Shown piece after piece: positions 41,321-47,233 of a stretch of 64,000 nt of DNA. The position numbers and the translations under genes are program-made. Below the pieces are notes generated by a model. That model did no database searches. It was not told the origin of the DNA and saw only the letters and a list, made by a program, of their open reading frames with translations. The DNA lies in contig NZ_RSED01000017.1 in the NCBI RefSeq assembly GCF_003933735.1, positions 1 to 64,000 on the forward strand, given 5' to 3'. Each line of letters begins with the position of its first letter. Positions within the stretch are counted from its first letter, which is position 1. This stretch comes from Aquabacterium soli (GTDB taxonomy: Bacteria > Pseudomonadota > Gammaproteobacteria > Burkholderiales > Burkholderiaceae_C).

Positions 41321-42330
41321 GCCTGCTGGCCCGTGCGCCTTCATCGGTGCTGTTGCCCGACGGCACGGCGGCCACGGGGCGCTACGAGGGGCGCATCGCT
41401 CGGTTGGATTGGGGCGGACTGGCCGCGGCCGACCGCCGGCCATTCTGGTGGCGCACGCTACGGCACAAGCGCTGGCAGTACCTGGGCATCGGTTCTCAAC
41501 ACCTGTTTGTCGGCTTGGCCATCGTGGACCTGGGTTGGGGCTGCACAGCCTTTGCCTACTTGTTTGAGCGTGGTTCACGCACGCTGCTTGCGGACTGGTC
41601 CCAGGATGGGATCAAGGGTTGGTCGGGAGCCGTGTCAGACGCACCGGTGACGGGCAGTCGTGTCCATTTCAGGGGGCCAGGCGCGCGTCTGAGCTGGCAG
41701 CACGATGCCAGATCAGACAGCCTGCATGTGCATGTGGCAGTGCCCGGCCTGGCCTTGGAGGCCACCGTGTCTCTGTCCGATGCGCCGCCTTTGCTGCTGG
41801 CTATAGGCCCGATCGGAGAGGCGGGCGATGGCCTGGCCCACGCTACGCAGAAGACTTCTGCCTTGCCCGTGCAAGGCTGGGCCCAGGCGGGTGGTCAGCG
41901 TTTCGATCTGGCGAATGCCGTGGCCAGCCTGGACAGCTCGCACGGCCTGCTGGCGCATTGCACTGCCTGGCAATGGGCCTGTGCGCACCGTCCCGGGCTG
42001 GGCTTCAACCTGCAGGCCGGGTATTTCGGTGCGCACGAGAACGCCCTGTGGCTGGACGGCCAACTGATCCCGCTGGGTGCGGCACGTTTTGATTTCGATG
42101 CGGCCGATCCACTGGCTCCATGGCGCGTGCGCACAGACGATGGGCTGCTGGACCTGGACTTCCAGCCCGAGGGCGCTCGTGGAGAGCAGCGCAACCTGGG
42201 CCTGGTGGCCAGCCGCTATGTGCAGCCCGTCGGCACCTTCAGCGGCTATGTCAGGGCCTCGGATGGTGCGGCGCCTCGGCCGGTGCACGACTTGCTGGGT
42301 GTGACCGAGGACCACAGCTCGCGCTGGTGA
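41317..42330 (+). CDS. DUF2804 family protein
   Basis: The 337-residue protein matches the DUF2804 pattern: an early FWWRTLRHKRWQYLGIGS, then AIVDLGWGCTAFAYLFERGSR, and a C-terminal GTFSGYV segment. The fold is probably beta-sandwich and the function of the family is unknown. It starts with a GTG that overlaps the AraC stop by three bases, so expression is coupled to the regulator. Its last 80 bases overlap, in antisense, the 3' end of the AmiE-like gene. It has no signal peptide or membrane helix. Confidence 0.8.
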   Translation: MSLLARAPSSVLLPDGTAATGRYEGRIARLDWGGLAAADRRPFWWRTLRHKRWQYLGIGSQHLFVGLAIVDLGWGCTAFAYLFERGSRTLLADWSQDGIKGWSGAVSDAPVTGSRVHFRGPGARLSWQHDARSDSLHVHVAVPGLALEATVSLSDAPPLLLAIGPIGEAGDGLAHATQKTSALPVQGWAQAGGQRFDLANAVASLDSSHGLLAHCTAWQWACAHRPGLGFNLQAGYFGAHENALWLDGQLIPLGAARFDFDAADPLAPWRVRTDDGLLDLDFQPEGARGEQRNLGLVASRYVQPVGTFSGYVRASDGAAPRPVHDLLGVTEDHSSRW

Positions 42331-43063
42331 TGCCCTGGGGCGGCACCGCTTGCCCGCGGGCTTCGCGGATCAGCCGTTTGCTGAGTTGCACGAACTGGAT
42401 GCCGTAGTCCTCCTCGCCGCACTCGCCCAAGGTGTGGCCATCGAACCCGATCACGGCTGAGCGCCCGAAGTGGCAGCGCACGCCGTCGAAGCCCGCCGCG
42501 TTGGCCACCGCCACGTAGCTGTGGTGTGCCAGGGCCAGCGCCTGTGGAGCTGGCAGTGCGGTGGACTCGACGGGGCACCCCACGATCAGTTCTGCGGCGC
42601 TGGCCGAATGGCCATCCGACAGGGACACTGTCATGCCCTTGGGCCCAGCGCAAACGCTGGGCATGTCACAGTCCGTGCCTCGGTGGGCCTGCACGATGTC
42701 GCCCTGGTCATCCATCAGTACCAGCGTGTGCTCGGCGGGGCAGCCGAGCGAGAACACGCCCCACACCTGCGCGTTTCTGCAGGCACGCGCCAGCACGGCG
42801 GTCTCGTTGCCGGGGATGCTGCCCACCGTGTTCAGCATGGCATCGTCGTCATGGCCATCACCTTGCGGCAGGCCATGAGTGCTGTACGCCGGAAAGATCA
42901 CCAGGTCCAGGCCGGGCAGGCCCAGCTTCAGCCCTTCGATCATCTGGCGGATCTTGTTCGCGTTGGCCAGTACCTCGGCCCGGGTACGAAGCCGGGGCAT
43001 CTTGTAGTTCACGACCGCGACGCCAACGGCATCGTCGCTGGCCGGTGTGTCGTTCTGGGGCAC
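42251..43063 (-). CDS. AmiE-like protein without catalytic triad (truncated paralogue)
   Basis: The 270-residue product aligns with AmiE of this window from [12 protein letters not shown] to [11 protein letters not shown] and is clearly related. The active site is gone: E59 is A59 (FPAYS), the Lys segment KYRKIM reads AHRGTD, and the CDDGNYPE segment with the nucleophile is replaced by SDGHSA. The C-terminal 75 residues of AmiE are missing; the tail here reads antisense through the end of the DUF2804 gene. The GTG start is well supported by AGGAG seven bases upstream. The frame is open and structural motifs such as [12 protein letters not shown] persist. It is either a pseudoenzyme or a young pseudogene. 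Confidence 0.75.
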   Translation of the reverse strand: MPQNDTPASDDAVGVAVVNYKMPRLRTRAEVLANANKIRQMIEGLKLGLPGLDLVIFPAYSTHGLPQGDGHDDDAMLNTVGSIPGNETAVLARACRNAQVWGVFSLGCPAEHTLVLMDDQGDIVQAHRGTDCDMPSVCAGPKGMTVSLSDGHSASAAELIVGCPVESTALPAPQALALAHHSYVAVANAAGFDGVRCHFGRSAVIGFDGHTLGECGEEDYGIQFVQLSKRLIREARGQAVPPQGITSASCGPRSHPASRAPAEAPHHPRP

Positions 43064-43160
43064 GGCCTGTCTCCTGCGGCTCTCTCGATGGTCCACAGGA
43101 TCGGCGGCGTGGGCGCCAGCGGCAATACGTCGATTGACGTAGGCAGGCGTGCCCGTGGCG

Positions 43161-43919
43161 TCAGGCGGCGTGCTGGGCTTGCGCCACCAGCCAGGACTCG
43201 AATGTTCTTGCGCCCAGCCGCGGCGCATCACCCGGCGTGAGCGACCCGTCATCCAGCACGGTGCCGAAGTAAGGCGCCGCTGCATCTTCCACCACCTGGC
43301 GCGTGTCGCCCGTGGCAGCAAGGTACTGCTGCACGAATGCCGCCATGCCCAGGCGCTTCGGACCAGCCAACTCCACCAGTCCATTCAATGGCTTGGCCAA
43401 GGCCACCGCGGCCAGCAGTTCGGCGACATCGGCCGAGGCAATGGGCTGCATGTGCGCAGGCGACAGGTGCACCGAGCCGTTCCTTGCCGCAGACCCCGCG
43501 ATGGTGCCCATGAACTCGAAGAACTGCGTGGCACGCACGATGGTGTAAGGCACCAATGAGGACCTGATCAGCGCCTCCTGCGCCAGCTTGGCGCGGAAGT
43601 AACCGCTGTCCTGCAGGCGCTCCGTTCCCACCACCGACAATGCGACATGGTGTGCCACGCCTGCTTGCGTTTCGGCCGCCAGAAGGTTGCGCCCAGAGGT
43701 CTCGAAGAAGGCCATCACAGCCTGGTCCTCGAAAGAAGGTGAGTTGGCCACATCCACCACCACCTGAGCACCGGCGAGCGCCTGGGCCAGGCCCTCGCCG
43801 GTGATGGTGTTGACGCCTGTGTTGGGCGAGGCTGCGAGGGCCTCATGTCCTTGTGCGCGCAAGGCATTGACGAGTTGGGTACCGATGAGGCCGGTGCCTC
43901 CGATGACGACGATCTTCAT
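43161..43919 (-). CDS. NmrA-like NAD(P)-binding epimerase/oxidoreductase
   Basis: The 252-residue protein starts with a Rossmann motif (IVVIGGTGLIGTQLV) and follows the atypical short-chain dehydrogenase pattern with VVVDVANSPSFED, YFRAKLAQEALI and YTIVRATQFFEFM. The usual YxxxK is represented by YFRAK. Such epimerase-like proteins are a standard companion of ECF41 sigma factors, together with carboxymuconolactone decarboxylases. It lies 39 bases after the decarboxylase-fusion gene on the same strand and should be co-transcribed from the sigma-dependent promoter at 44741-44767. The substrate is unknown. Confidence 0.88.
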   Translation of the reverse strand: MKIVVIGGTGLIGTQLVNALRAQGHEALAASPNTGVNTITGEGLAQALAGAQVVVDVANSPSFEDQAVMAFFETSGRNLLAAETQAGVAHHVALSVVGTERLQDSGYFRAKLAQEALIRSSLVPYTIVRATQFFEFMGTIAGSAARNGSVHLSPAHMQPIASADVAELLAAVALAKPLNGLVELAGPKRLGMAAFVQQYLAATGDTRQVVEDAAAPYFGTVLDDGSLTPGDAPRLGARTFESWLVAQAQHAA

Positions 43920-43958: not shown

Positions 43959-44732
43959 TCAGGACAGGTCGGCCTTTTCCAGCCCAAAGGCCTTGTCGTG
44001 GATGCCGGGCACCGTCTGGAAGGCCACGTTGACGCGGTTCCAGGCGTTGATGGCCATCACGTGGAAGGTCAGGTCAGACAGTTCCTTCTCGCTGAACTGG
44101 GCGCGCACTTGTTCGTAGTCGGCATCTGCCACGCCATGCTCGGGGATGCGGGTCAGCAGTTCGGTCCAGGCCAGAGCAGCCCGTTCACGCGGCTCGAACA
44201 GGGGCGATTCGCGCCAGATGGCGATGTGGTGCAGGCGCAGGTCACGCTCGCCGCGGATGTGGGCCTGCTTGATGTGCATGTCCAGGCAGAAAGCGCAGCC
44301 ATTGAGCTGCGATGCGCGGATGTTGACCAGGTCATGGATGGCCTCTTCGATGCCGCTGGCCTTGACCTGGGTGCTGAACTCGATCAGCTTCTTGAACAGC
44401 TGGGGCGATTGCTGCATGTAGTTGAGGCGTTGGCTCATGGTGGCTCCTTCGGGGTGGTTGAGCGCCTGCGGGGCGCAGGTAACGAAAGCGGATGTCGGCG
44501 CAGGCGTGCGCAACTGCGCACGGGCCTGCTGGATGTAGGCCCGGCATTGATCAAGGCGCCAGCCCGTCAGCCTGGCCAGCTCGTCATCGCCTACCGAGAA
44601 CAGGCCGCCGAGGATGAAGGCGGTGCGTTCTTCAGGCGTTATGCACTCCAGCCACTGGAGCAGCGCGGCAGTGGCCTCGTCGGCGCACGCCAGCGCTGAG
44701 CCGGGTGATGAGGGGTGATCGAGGGCGTCCAT
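43959..44732 (-). CDS. Sigma region 4-like domain fused to AhpD/CMD-type decarboxylase
   Basis: One open frame of 257 codons joins two parts. Residues 1-98 resemble ECF sigma region 4 (ECITPEERTAFILGGLF, then DELARLTGWRLDQCRAYIQQAR). The last 159 residues are a carboxymuconolactone-decarboxylase/AhpD-like protein with the redox CAFCLDMHIKQA motif. An internal ATG at 44438 has a strong AAGGAG six bases upstream, so the CMD part can also be made alone. The upstream ATG lies nine bases from the -10 of a sigma-type promoter, so the long form would be nearly leaderless. The fusion may be real, or region 4 may be a relic. An epimerase gene follows. Confidence 0.65.
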   Translation of the reverse strand: MDALDHPSSPGSALACADEATAALLQWLECITPEERTAFILGGLFSVGDDELARLTGWRLDQCRAYIQQARAQLRTPAPTSAFVTCAPQALNHPEGATMSQRLNYMQQSPQLFKKLIEFSTQVKASGIEEAIHDLVNIRASQLNGCAFCLDMHIKQAHIRGERDLRLHHIAIWRESPLFEPRERAALAWTELLTRIPEHGVADADYEQVRAQFSEKELSDLTFHVMAINAWNRVNVAFQTVPGIHDKAFGLEKADLS

Positions 44733-44740
44733 ACCCTCTA

Positions 44741-44767
44741 TACGTGCCGGCCACCCGTTTTGTGACA
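44741..44767 (-). promoter_or_regulatory. ECF41-type promoter of the decarboxylase-epimerase unit
   Basis: On the minus strand TGTCACA (44767-44761) is followed by a 16-base spacer and CGTA (44744-44741). Known ECF41 promoters have TGTCACA at -35 and CGTC at -10. The spacer begins AAACGGG, as in the promoter at 45699-45725. Transcription should begin at or just before the ATG at 44732. Confidence 0.8.
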
Positions 44768-44796
44768 CACCCGCTGGGGCGTGCCCCGAATGGCCG

Positions 44797-45687
44797 TCAG
44801 TCGGAGACCGGGCTGCCCAGAATGGCGGCCAGCCGCGACAGTTTGGCGGGGTTGCGCTGCACCAGGATGCGCGTGATGCGCTGGCCATCGGTTTCGTAGG
44901 CCTGGGCCGATTCCAGCACGCCATCGATGAAGCGCAGCAGACCCCAATGGCCATTGATGCCGACCACCTCGATGCGCACCTTGGCGCCATGCTTGAGCAA
45001 CGCTGCGTAGAACAGCTGGGCGATGCGCTGTGCCCCCAGCAGCGGGTAAGGGAAGCTCGGCACGCGTCCACCGCCATCACCGATCAGTTGGGCATCCTCG
45101 GCCAGCAGCGAGCGCAGGCTGGCGAAATCCCCGCGTGTCATGGCCTGCGCAAAATCGCTGAGCAGGCGGTGGTGTGTCTCGTGGGTCACCAAGTAGCGCG
45201 GGCGATCATCCTGCAGCTGCGTCTTGGCGCGGCTCACCAACTGGCGGCAGGCCACCTCGCTCTTGCCCAGCACCTCGGCCAGGTCGCTGTAATCGGCATC
45301 GAACACCTCGCGCAGCAGAAAGGCCGCACGGGCCTCGGGGGCGAGGCGTTCAAGCACCCGCAGAAACGCCACCGACACATCGTCGGCACGTTCGAGCATC
45401 TGCTCAGGTGAACTGGGCGGCGCCATCAACTGAGGCTCGGGCAGCCAGAAACCGGTGTAGTGCTCCCGCTGGACCTTGGCAGAGCGCAGCCTGTCGATGG
45501 CAAGGCGCGTGGACACCGTTACCAGCCAGGCTTCGCTGTGGTCGGATGCCATGGCATCGGCTTCATGCCAGCGCAGCCAGGCATCCTGCACCACCTCTTC
45601 GGCCTCGGCCAGCGAGCCCAGCATGCGATAGGCGATGCCTTGCAGCCGGGGGCGCAGGCGGTTGAAGGTCAGGGTCTTGTCGTCCAT
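44797..45687 (-). CDS. ECF41-group RNA polymerase sigma factor with SnoaL-like C terminus
   Basis: The 296-residue protein has sigma region 2 (residues 8-75), a linker with the ECF41 signature WLPEP (81-85), region 4 with YSDLAEVLGKSEVACRQLVSRAK, and a C-terminal SnoaL-like domain. The conserved NPxKL motif is at 279-283 as NPAKL. In this group the C-terminal extension regulates the sigma factor in place of an anti-sigma factor. Usual targets are carboxymuconolactone decarboxylase, oxidoreductase or epimerase genes, two of which lie directly downstream. A matching promoter in front of the gene (45699-45725) indicates autoregulation. The signal is unknown. Confidence 0.93.
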   Translation of the reverse strand: MDDKTLTFNRLRPRLQGIAYRMLGSLAEAEEVVQDAWLRWHEADAMASDHSEAWLVTVSTRLAIDRLRSAKVQREHYTGFWLPEPQLMAPPSSPEQMLERADDVSVAFLRVLERLAPEARAAFLLREVFDADYSDLAEVLGKSEVACRQLVSRAKTQLQDDRPRYLVTHETHHRLLSDFAQAMTRGDFASLRSLLAEDAQLIGDGGGRVPSFPYPLLGAQRIAQLFYAALLKHGAKVRIEVVGINGHWGLLRFIDGVLESAQAYETDGQRITRILVQRNPAKLSRLAAILGSPVSD

Positions 45688-45698
45688 GGTGACCCTTA

Positions 45699-45725
45699 TA
45701 CGTTCGAACTGCCCGTTTTGTGACA
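45699..45725 (-). promoter_or_regulatory. ECF41-type promoter of the sigma gene
   Basis: On the minus strand TGTCACA (45725-45719), a 16-base spacer and CGTA (45702-45699) repeat the pattern found before the decarboxylase fusion. Both continue as CGTATA. The predicted start point is only about five bases before the sigma gene ATG, so the transcript should have almost no leader. Confidence 0.8.
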
Positions 45726-45749: not shown

Positions 45750-47233
45750 TCAGCGGCTACCGACCACGGCCGAGGGCGTGTTGTAGGCCTTCAGGTCGGC
45801 CAGCTTGACCACGCCGGGGCCATGCAGGGCCGCGATGTGCTCCACATCCAGCTTGAGCTTCTCGATGTTCTCCTGCAGATTGACCGCGTAGGGGTTGGGC
45901 GTGGCAGGCGGCTTGGCATTGGCGGCCAGTGGCGTGTAGGCGTCCCCCTCGATCAGGATCTTCTCGGCCGGCAGGTACACCAGCGCGAAGGCGTCGTTGT
46001 GGGTATTGCCGGCCAAGGGGTAGACCTCGATCTGCCGCTTGCCATCGCTCAGCACGTGCTTGCCGGTGAATGCTTCGAACTTTGCCGCCTTGGGGGCCTG
46101 TGCCAGGCGGTCCTTGTTGAGGGTGCGAGGGGCCGCCCAGGCCTTCTTGTAGTAGTCCACATTGCCTTGGTGCGTGACAACGGTGGCGCCTTCGGCCACC
46201 AGGGTGCGCAGGCCGCCCGAGTGGTCAAAGTGGGCGTGCGAGTTGACCAGATACTTGATGGGCTTTCCCGGGATGACTTCCTTGACCTTGTCGATCACAG
46301 CCTGGGCGCGCGCCTCGCTCTGCGGCGCCTCGACCAGCACGACATGGTCTTTCTGTTCGATGGCCACACTGTGGTGCGTACCGCCGGTCAGGTAGAGCAC
46401 GCCCTCGGCCAGCTTGTTGACGGTCACGGTGATGGCTGGCGCTCCGGCCGCGACGTTGTCGGGCACCTTGATGGCGGGCACACCGTTGGCCTTCACGTCG
46501 GCCACGTTGATGTCGAGCACCGGGTGGCCGCCCAGGCTCCGCACGATGCGGGCCGGGAAGGTCACGCCGCTGAAGTCCTTGTAGCCCTCGAAGCGTGTCT
46601 CGATCAGGGTATCGCCCAGGATGGGGTTGTCGATCCAGGTGCGTACGCGCTCGACACGGTCCTGGTCGTGATCCAGCCCACGTAGCGGTACTTTCCGGCG
46701 TTGAAGCTGACCTCCGCGCCGCCATTGGCCGGCTTGGATGACGCCTTGTTGGCCAGCGCCGCCTTCAGGAAGCCCTGTGGGGTGGACCAGATCTCGGCGC
46801 TGCGCTCCTCTACGGCGGCAGGTTGCGCAGTGGCATTGGCGGCGGCCGGGGCCACGCCCACGTTCCAGGCCTGCGCACCGCTCACGTATTGGTCCACCTT
46901 CTGCTCCACGGGCACGGGGCGCACGCGGTTCGGGTCGATGGTCTGCAGTCGATTGATCTGTACGCGCGCAGCAGGCGCGGCGTAATCGACGCTGGCCACG
47001 TAGCGGCTCACGTCGAACTGAGGCCAGGCCTGCCCAGGCGCAGGGGCCTGGCCGAACTGGAACCAGCGGCCACTGCCCGAGAACTCCAGCGACTGCACCT
47101 GCGCAACGCCCAGTGACTGGGCCGCTGTCTCAAGCGAGGCGGCCTGCGCGGCCAACGCCACGGCAGACAAGGCCAGCGGAAGTGCGACGGATGTGGTCAG
47201 GGTGCGGCTGAGCGAGCGAATCGAACGGTGCAT
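45750..47233 (-). pseudogene. Exported metallo-beta-lactamase-fold hydrolase, frameshifted
   Basis: Two frames together give one protein. The first (from ATG 47233, with AGGAGG five bases upstream) has a signal peptide ending near AAQAASL and runs to KYRYVGWI, then shifts and stops at 46604. The second continues with HDQDRVERV and DNPILGDTL and holds the zinc motifs SHAHFDHSGG, GNTHNDAF, IEGDAYTP and ALHGPG. The break is at GGATC near 46670-46673; restoring one base (GGATCC) rejoins the frames. The whole would be about 494 residues. It is either a recent single-base deletion or a sequence error. The substrate is unknown. Confidence 0.8.

Follow-up and report, generated by a model that had tools for sequence, protein, structure and literature searches.

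The locus described here lies on the minus strand of the window, by which we mean the whole 64,000-nucleotide stretch of Aquabacterium soli DNA that was analysed, and comprises a sigma factor gene, a gene joining a sigma4-like segment to a decarboxylase, a NAD(P)-binding gene and two promoters of the ECF41 kind (Table 1). The sigma protein scores 347.3 bits (cut-off 323.25) over residues 7-286 against TIGR02957, a model that we equate with ECF41, and is the only match to it in this genome at E <= 1e-30, in agreement with the original prediction, which had placed the gene in ECF41. Its linker between sigma2 and sigma4 reads FWLPEPQL and so carries the WLPEP motif that marks the group, Sigma70_r2 and Sigma70_r4_2 of Pfam exceed their cut-offs, SnoaL_2 reaches 18.1 bits, under its cut-off of 27, and the solved chain most similar to it is SigJ (5xe7). 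Scanning of four neighbouring frames, one of which matched nothing, identified no anti-sigma gene among them. Upstream of the sigma gene, a metallo-beta-lactamase-fold gene (45750-47233, minus strand) looks split into two frames (45750-46565 and 46604-47233), the second matching no family, and has the look of either a decayed gene or a sequence error. An aliphatic-amidase-like gene (42254-43084, minus strand) has an alanine for the glutamate of FPEYS and, in comparison with 2uxy, is largely missing the stretch around the catalytic cysteine; given the roles that we presume for these two residues, its product is probably inactive.

The fusion protein reaches 63 bits with the CMD family, over the cut-off, and its decarboxylase part contains CAFC, a CxxC motif. 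As had been proposed, the second promoter precedes a decarboxylase fusion gene, with its ATG 8 bases after the promoter motif. The sigma4-like part is more distant, Sigma70_r4_2 giving 16.9 bits, under its cut-off of 25.7, and the sigma4 part of the SigJ, SigI and SigX4 models matching at E 1.4e-8 to 5.5e-7, under the whole-protein cut-offs. No ECF41 site with one mismatch or fewer precedes the NAD(P)-binding gene, which probably belongs to the same operon as the fusion; lying so close behind it, this gene may bring two kinds of COE gene into one operon.

Table 1. Features of the ECF41 locus, in window coordinates
Feature	Position	Strand	Remarks
ECF41 promoter of sigma gene, TGTCACA-N16-CGTA	45699..45725	-	11 bases 5' of ATG 45687
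AAGGG, Shine-Dalgarno-like stretch before sigma ATG	45693..45697	-	5' of predicted +1
Predicted 3-base leader (ACC) of sigma message	45688..45690	-	RNA start taken as 9th base after -10 tetrad
ECF41 sigma factor gene, 296 aa (sigma2, WLPEP linker, sigma4, C-terminal extension)	44797..45687	-
ECF41 promoter of fusion gene, TGTCACA-N16-CGTA	44741..44767	-	8 bases 5' of ATG 44732
Fusion gene, sigma4-like and carboxymuconolactone decarboxylase/AhpD-like, 257 aa	43959..44732	-
Decarboxylase part with internal ATG 44438 after AAGGAG	43959..44438	-	Alternative Shine-Dalgarno-led start
NAD(P)-binding oxidoreductase/epimerase-like gene	43161..43919	-	NAD_binding_10 44.8 bits; 39 bases downstream of fusion

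Both promoters are present on the minus strand in the form originally described, TGTCACA-N16-CGTATA, with TAAGGGTCACC after the motif in front of the sigma gene and TAGAGGGT after it in front of the fusion gene. The -35 element and the spacer length of 16 bases agree exactly with the ECF41 consensus, and the -10 is CGTA where the consensus has CGTC. This CGTA occurs in three genomes of the genus (the window's own, L015 and L016), and the other ECF41 promoters listed, those of further genus members included, have CGTC or CGTT. In Candidatus Aquabacterium excrementipullorum (L015/L062) the sigma-gene promoter stands the same 11 bases from its ATG. Within the 64-kb window TGTCACA-N15-17-CGTA is seen twice against 0.05 expected, and two occurrences arose in 0 of 100 shuffles; sites with up to two mismatches number 13 against 27 expected, none of them with exactly one mismatch. 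Across the genome there are 3 exact matches and also 3 of a reversed control pattern, and a relaxed motif ending in CGT (TGTCACA-N15-17-CGT) gives 10 against 10, so that counts alone carry little meaning. For the genome scan suggested with the original prediction, the improbable feature is not the number of sites: it is that an ECF41 locus holds two of them 1 kb apart, each with a gene start directly behind it. Eight further genomic TGTCACA-N15-17-CGT sites (nine loci, two of which are one site) all overlap open frames of at least 100 codons, mechanically defined, and none was counted as a further regulon member; in two cases a frame also begins within 250 bases downstream. The opening AAACGGG of the spacers, likewise pointed out at the outset, is indeed common to both, and we rejected it as a functional element, as the corresponding spacers of the closest relative begin ACACCTC and ACACAGC and the match is probably without function.

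RNA starts in the window were predicted by transfer from three other bacteria, in which transcription begins at the ninth base after the -10 tetrad. In Sinorhizobium meliloti the ECF41 motif is reported 9 nt upstream of the mapped SMb20029 start (PMC3616915; promoter sequence in PMC6180224) and in the pSymB record the CGTC is 32 bases from the ATG, which makes the RNA start the ninth base with 23 bases after it. In Bacillus licheniformis and Rhodobacter sphaeroides the mapped ECF41 target messages begin with a G, after which come 22 and 23 untranslated bases with a ribosome-binding site (PMC3426412), and subtraction of these from the values of 31 and 32 in Table 5 of that paper leaves 9 by our arithmetic, which reads as distances from the -10 what the table calls leader lengths. 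Applied to the window, this rule predicts a leader of 3 bases for the sigma message and of 0 bases for the fusion message, the predicted +1 of the latter being the A of its ATG, and both values fall within the range of about 0-6 bases expected beforehand. The AAGGG, which ends 5 bases before the sigma ATG, would lie outside a sigma message driven from the ECF41 promoter and inside any read-through message. We regard the predicted leaderless start as well supported for the sigma class and hold it with less confidence for the fusion.

Three genomes were found to carry the fusion, namely the window's, that of A. excrementipullorum and that of Rhizobacter MAG_54 (-35 CGTCACA), and in each an in-frame ATG lies 8 bases after the -10. 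In the window this ATG is the sole start ahead of the sigma4-like part, and more in-frame starts occur nearby in the other two. The three stand among 168 distinct CMD frames of the sampled loci, of which two are truncated copies of the fusion in the window; full-length matches occur in 2 of 42 genomes of the genus, the window's included, and among the matches listed at family level the fusions number at least three. A third genus member (L016) has the promoter and an ATG at 8 without the sigma4-like extension. The fusion might instead be no real product, the sigma4 piece having decayed within the leader of a decarboxylase that starts at 44438 after 294 untranslated bases, with the ATG at +1 reflecting a preference for the initial transcript (GGGYRTG), and we consider this quite possible, if short of probable. 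Indeed, the internal ATG is preceded by a Shine-Dalgarno-like stretch in all three fusions (AAGGAG in the window, AAAGGAAG and CGGAG in the other two), unfused decarboxylase relatives start at its position, and a Shine-Dalgarno-like 4-mer precedes 58 of the 65 decarboxylase starts scored. Furthermore, in the 72 unfused of 75 decarboxylase promoters the conserved first residue lies at least 23 bases past the -10, yet offset 8 holds ATG in 11 and GTG in 12, within a conserved TTGnnGGYRTG-like stretch, so that part of the signal may be such a preference of the initial transcript. The extension also evolves fast, with a pN/pS of 0.56 (bootstrap 0.41-0.77) between the window and A. excrementipullorum, 0.67 (0.50-0.90) between the window and Rhizobacter and 0.89 (0.66-1.19) between A. 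excrementipullorum and Rhizobacter, the corresponding ranges being 0.22-0.42 in the decarboxylase part and 0.20-0.40 in the sigma factor. Nevertheless, the bootstrap range stays below 1 in two of these pairs, spanning it in the third, an uninterrupted frame runs on into the decarboxylase in each of the three genomes and is kept through changes in length, and the distance from -10 to ATG is exactly 8 bases in 3 of 3. The extension is thus weakly constrained, and a leaderless start of a genuine fusion is no more than plausible, given the Shine-Dalgarno-led internal start of the decarboxylase part and the frequency of ATG and GTG at this offset in unfused promoters.

Many unfused decarboxylase promoters (for example L104, L057 and L108) carry an inverted repeat of the TTGAGGG...CCTTCAA type soon after the CGTC. 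Arms of at least 6 bp occur in 32 of the 72; when the sequence beyond the first 12 bases was shuffled 200 times, the number averaged 8.5 and never exceeded 15. As the left arm mostly starts ahead of the predicted first base of the RNA, the repeat seems more likely to be a DNA operator than an RNA hairpin.

The sigma genes were surveyed with TIGR02957 at E <= 1e-60 in a family sample (57 rows from 54 of 200 genomes, 56 usable with the window included), a phylum sample (55 rows from 49 of 398 genomes, 50 taken in) and additional genus, named-genome and plasmid loci, Actinobacteria being covered by seven plasmid records. A promoter was scored as TGTCACN or CGTCACA, N16 and CGT within 300 bases, variants counting as absent, and on this strict definition 38 of the 56 family sigma genes have one and 18 do not. 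The first in-frame ATG or GTG lies 7-9 bases past the -10 tetrad in 26 of the 38, representing 20 of 28 genera; two more lie at 10-12 bases, one being the window's gene, which at 11 bases falls outside the tight range, and 10 lie further off. An ATG at 8 or 9 is found in 24 of 37 promoter-bearing family genes (window excluded), for which p is 2e-27 against 2/64 with relatedness ignored. A Shine-Dalgarno-like 4-mer, expected by our own estimate in about one gene in four, with the fixed -10 occupying part of the tested stretch, precedes 0 of the 26 tight genes, 5 of the 10 with longer leaders and 10 of the 18 without promoter. The tight start is the sole in-frame start in 20 of the 26, a further one lies downstream in six, and in one of these six the first start is GTG. 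With all groups pooled, the ATG lies at 7-9 in 37 of 62 promoters and none of the 37 is Shine-Dalgarno-like, two of them (L134 and L231) being doubtful with a first start distant from the conserved part.

Of 47 sigma genes in the phylum sample, 9 have the promoter and 38 have none; six of the nine have the ATG at 8-9, one from the window's family and five (four in one genus) from a family of another order of the class, f17, in which all 5 genomes with the sigma factor share the layout. In the two annotated records that bear the promoter, the CDS start lies at offset 9 (Ideonella dechloratans) and, against the tight layout, at offset 44 by our arithmetic, not 8 (Streptomyces clavuligerus). A tree of 121 sigma proteins places 32 of the 34 tight-class rows in one clade of 54 (support 90/93, not among the starred nodes), and the tight label needs at least 10 changes, against a shuffled mean of 29.9, from which the layout is read as repeatedly gained or lost. 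A near-absent leader is accordingly predicted to be common among the sigma genes of this ECF41 clade.

Two other accounts of the sigma layout have to be weighed. Promoter and gene start may have been joined once by chance and simply not yet have been separated, without any function, and the confinement of the tight class largely to one clade, whose related rows are not independent, is what such an account would lead one to expect. However, the bases between -10 and ATG in the 26 tight genes have diverged to a mean identity of 38%, with 25 of 26 different, as have the -35 to -10 spacers (42%), yet the length stays at 7-9, and we consider mere inheritance of the spacing unlikely. More improbable still is that RNA starts further upstream or that another promoter dominates, the window's sigma gene being expressed mainly by read-through from the upstream frame, whose end at 45750 is separated from the promoter by 24 bases, with the AAGGG 5 bases 5' of the ATG as Shine-Dalgarno site, since the absence of such sites from all 37 genes with ATG at 7-9 would make Shine-Dalgarno-led translation poor there wherever the RNA starts, and the three mapped ECF41 promoters, two of them by our arithmetic, agree on the ninth base.

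Much of this arrangement has been known since 2012, when Wecke et al. described TGTCACA-N16-CGTC in front of sigma genes, COE genes or both, together with the activation of decarboxylase targets (PMC3426412); the motif, its occurrence ahead of the two genes and the decarboxylase as a target are therefore not new. The B. licheniformis and R. sphaeroides systems in that paper share with the window the promoter, the decarboxylase target, the C-terminal extension, the WLPEP linker and, in some cases, promoters before both genes, but their target leaders are the 22 and 23 bases mentioned above where the window has a predicted 0 and 3, their -10 is not CGTA and their target carries no sigma4-like segment. 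RpoE9/SMb20029 of S. meliloti likewise shares the ECF41 promoter, the start 9 nt after CGTC and the decarboxylase target, but target and sigma factor are likely one operon under one promoter (PMC3616915, PMC6180224), unlike the two promoters of the window, and AAAGGAG lies within the 23 bases between mapped start and ATG. Leaderless messages are not foreign to such bacteria: 171 mapped leaderless starts are given for S. meliloti (PMC3616915), leaderless genes are predicted in 9 of 71 beta-proteobacterial genomes, and in Burkholderia cenocepacia there are 72 exactly leaderless transcripts and 42 with leaders of up to 10 nt, 24 being tRNAs and regulators being over-represented among the rest (PMC4603805), so that the leaderless route exists in a related bacterium, although in the available part of that paper we found no ECF41 case. 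An ECF sigma gene with a leaderless message is also known in sigE of Mycobacterium tuberculosis, but there a promoter carrying a WhiB7-binding motif gives rise to the leaderless message, and the promoter with ECF features lies upstream (PMC4921905). The claim that leaderless ECF41 genes are undescribed stands within the literature searched, most subscription papers lying outside it: we found no such description, the accessible text of PMC3616915 treats ECF41 and leaderless starts and yielded no connection of the two, and a search for decarboxylase together with sigma-70 region 4 found no paper.

We propose a model in which the window holds an autoregulated ECF41 locus, whose two promoters are read by its own sigma factor and whose near-leaderless sigma message is translated without a Shine-Dalgarno site, and we consider this likely. 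At the level of sequence, the motif, its spacing, the protein families and the tight spacing in the sigma genes of this ECF41 clade are established; that the sigma factor reads its own and its target promoter is taken over from ECF41 systems elsewhere. The sigma factor would read the first promoter to express its own gene and the second to express the decarboxylase fusion, probably together with the NAD(P)-binding gene. With its 3 leader bases the sigma message would enter translation by the leaderless route. Messages that lack a leader are frequently translated with lower efficiency or in different conditions, which would separate the output of the sigma gene from that of a Shine-Dalgarno-led target. 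Positive feedback on the sigma factor would thereby be kept weak while the enzyme is made efficiently or, alternatively, feedback would be tied to conditions that favour leaderless translation. Because the window's sigma gene keeps an AAGGG upstream, read-through messages could in addition be Shine-Dalgarno-led. In this genome and two relatives, the sigma4-like segment placed between target promoter and decarboxylase would, if translated, start at the first base of the message, and the decarboxylase could also be started at its internal Shine-Dalgarno-led ATG, giving two products.

On balance we lean towards a wider form of this model, in which the ECF41 sigma clade, spread over the window's family and one or more families of another order, would as a rule start its own messages leaderless and keep the target enzyme Shine-Dalgarno-led, with the addition in two Aquabacterium and one Rhizobacter of a sigma4-like target head translated from the first base. 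One regulator family with a tight layout in many genera and a Shine-Dalgarno-led target under the same kind of promoter provides a ready comparison, suited to exploring the role of leaderless translation in a self-activating circuit. If true, the model would widen the picture of the ECF41 regulon, in which the messages mapped to date have ordinary leaders.
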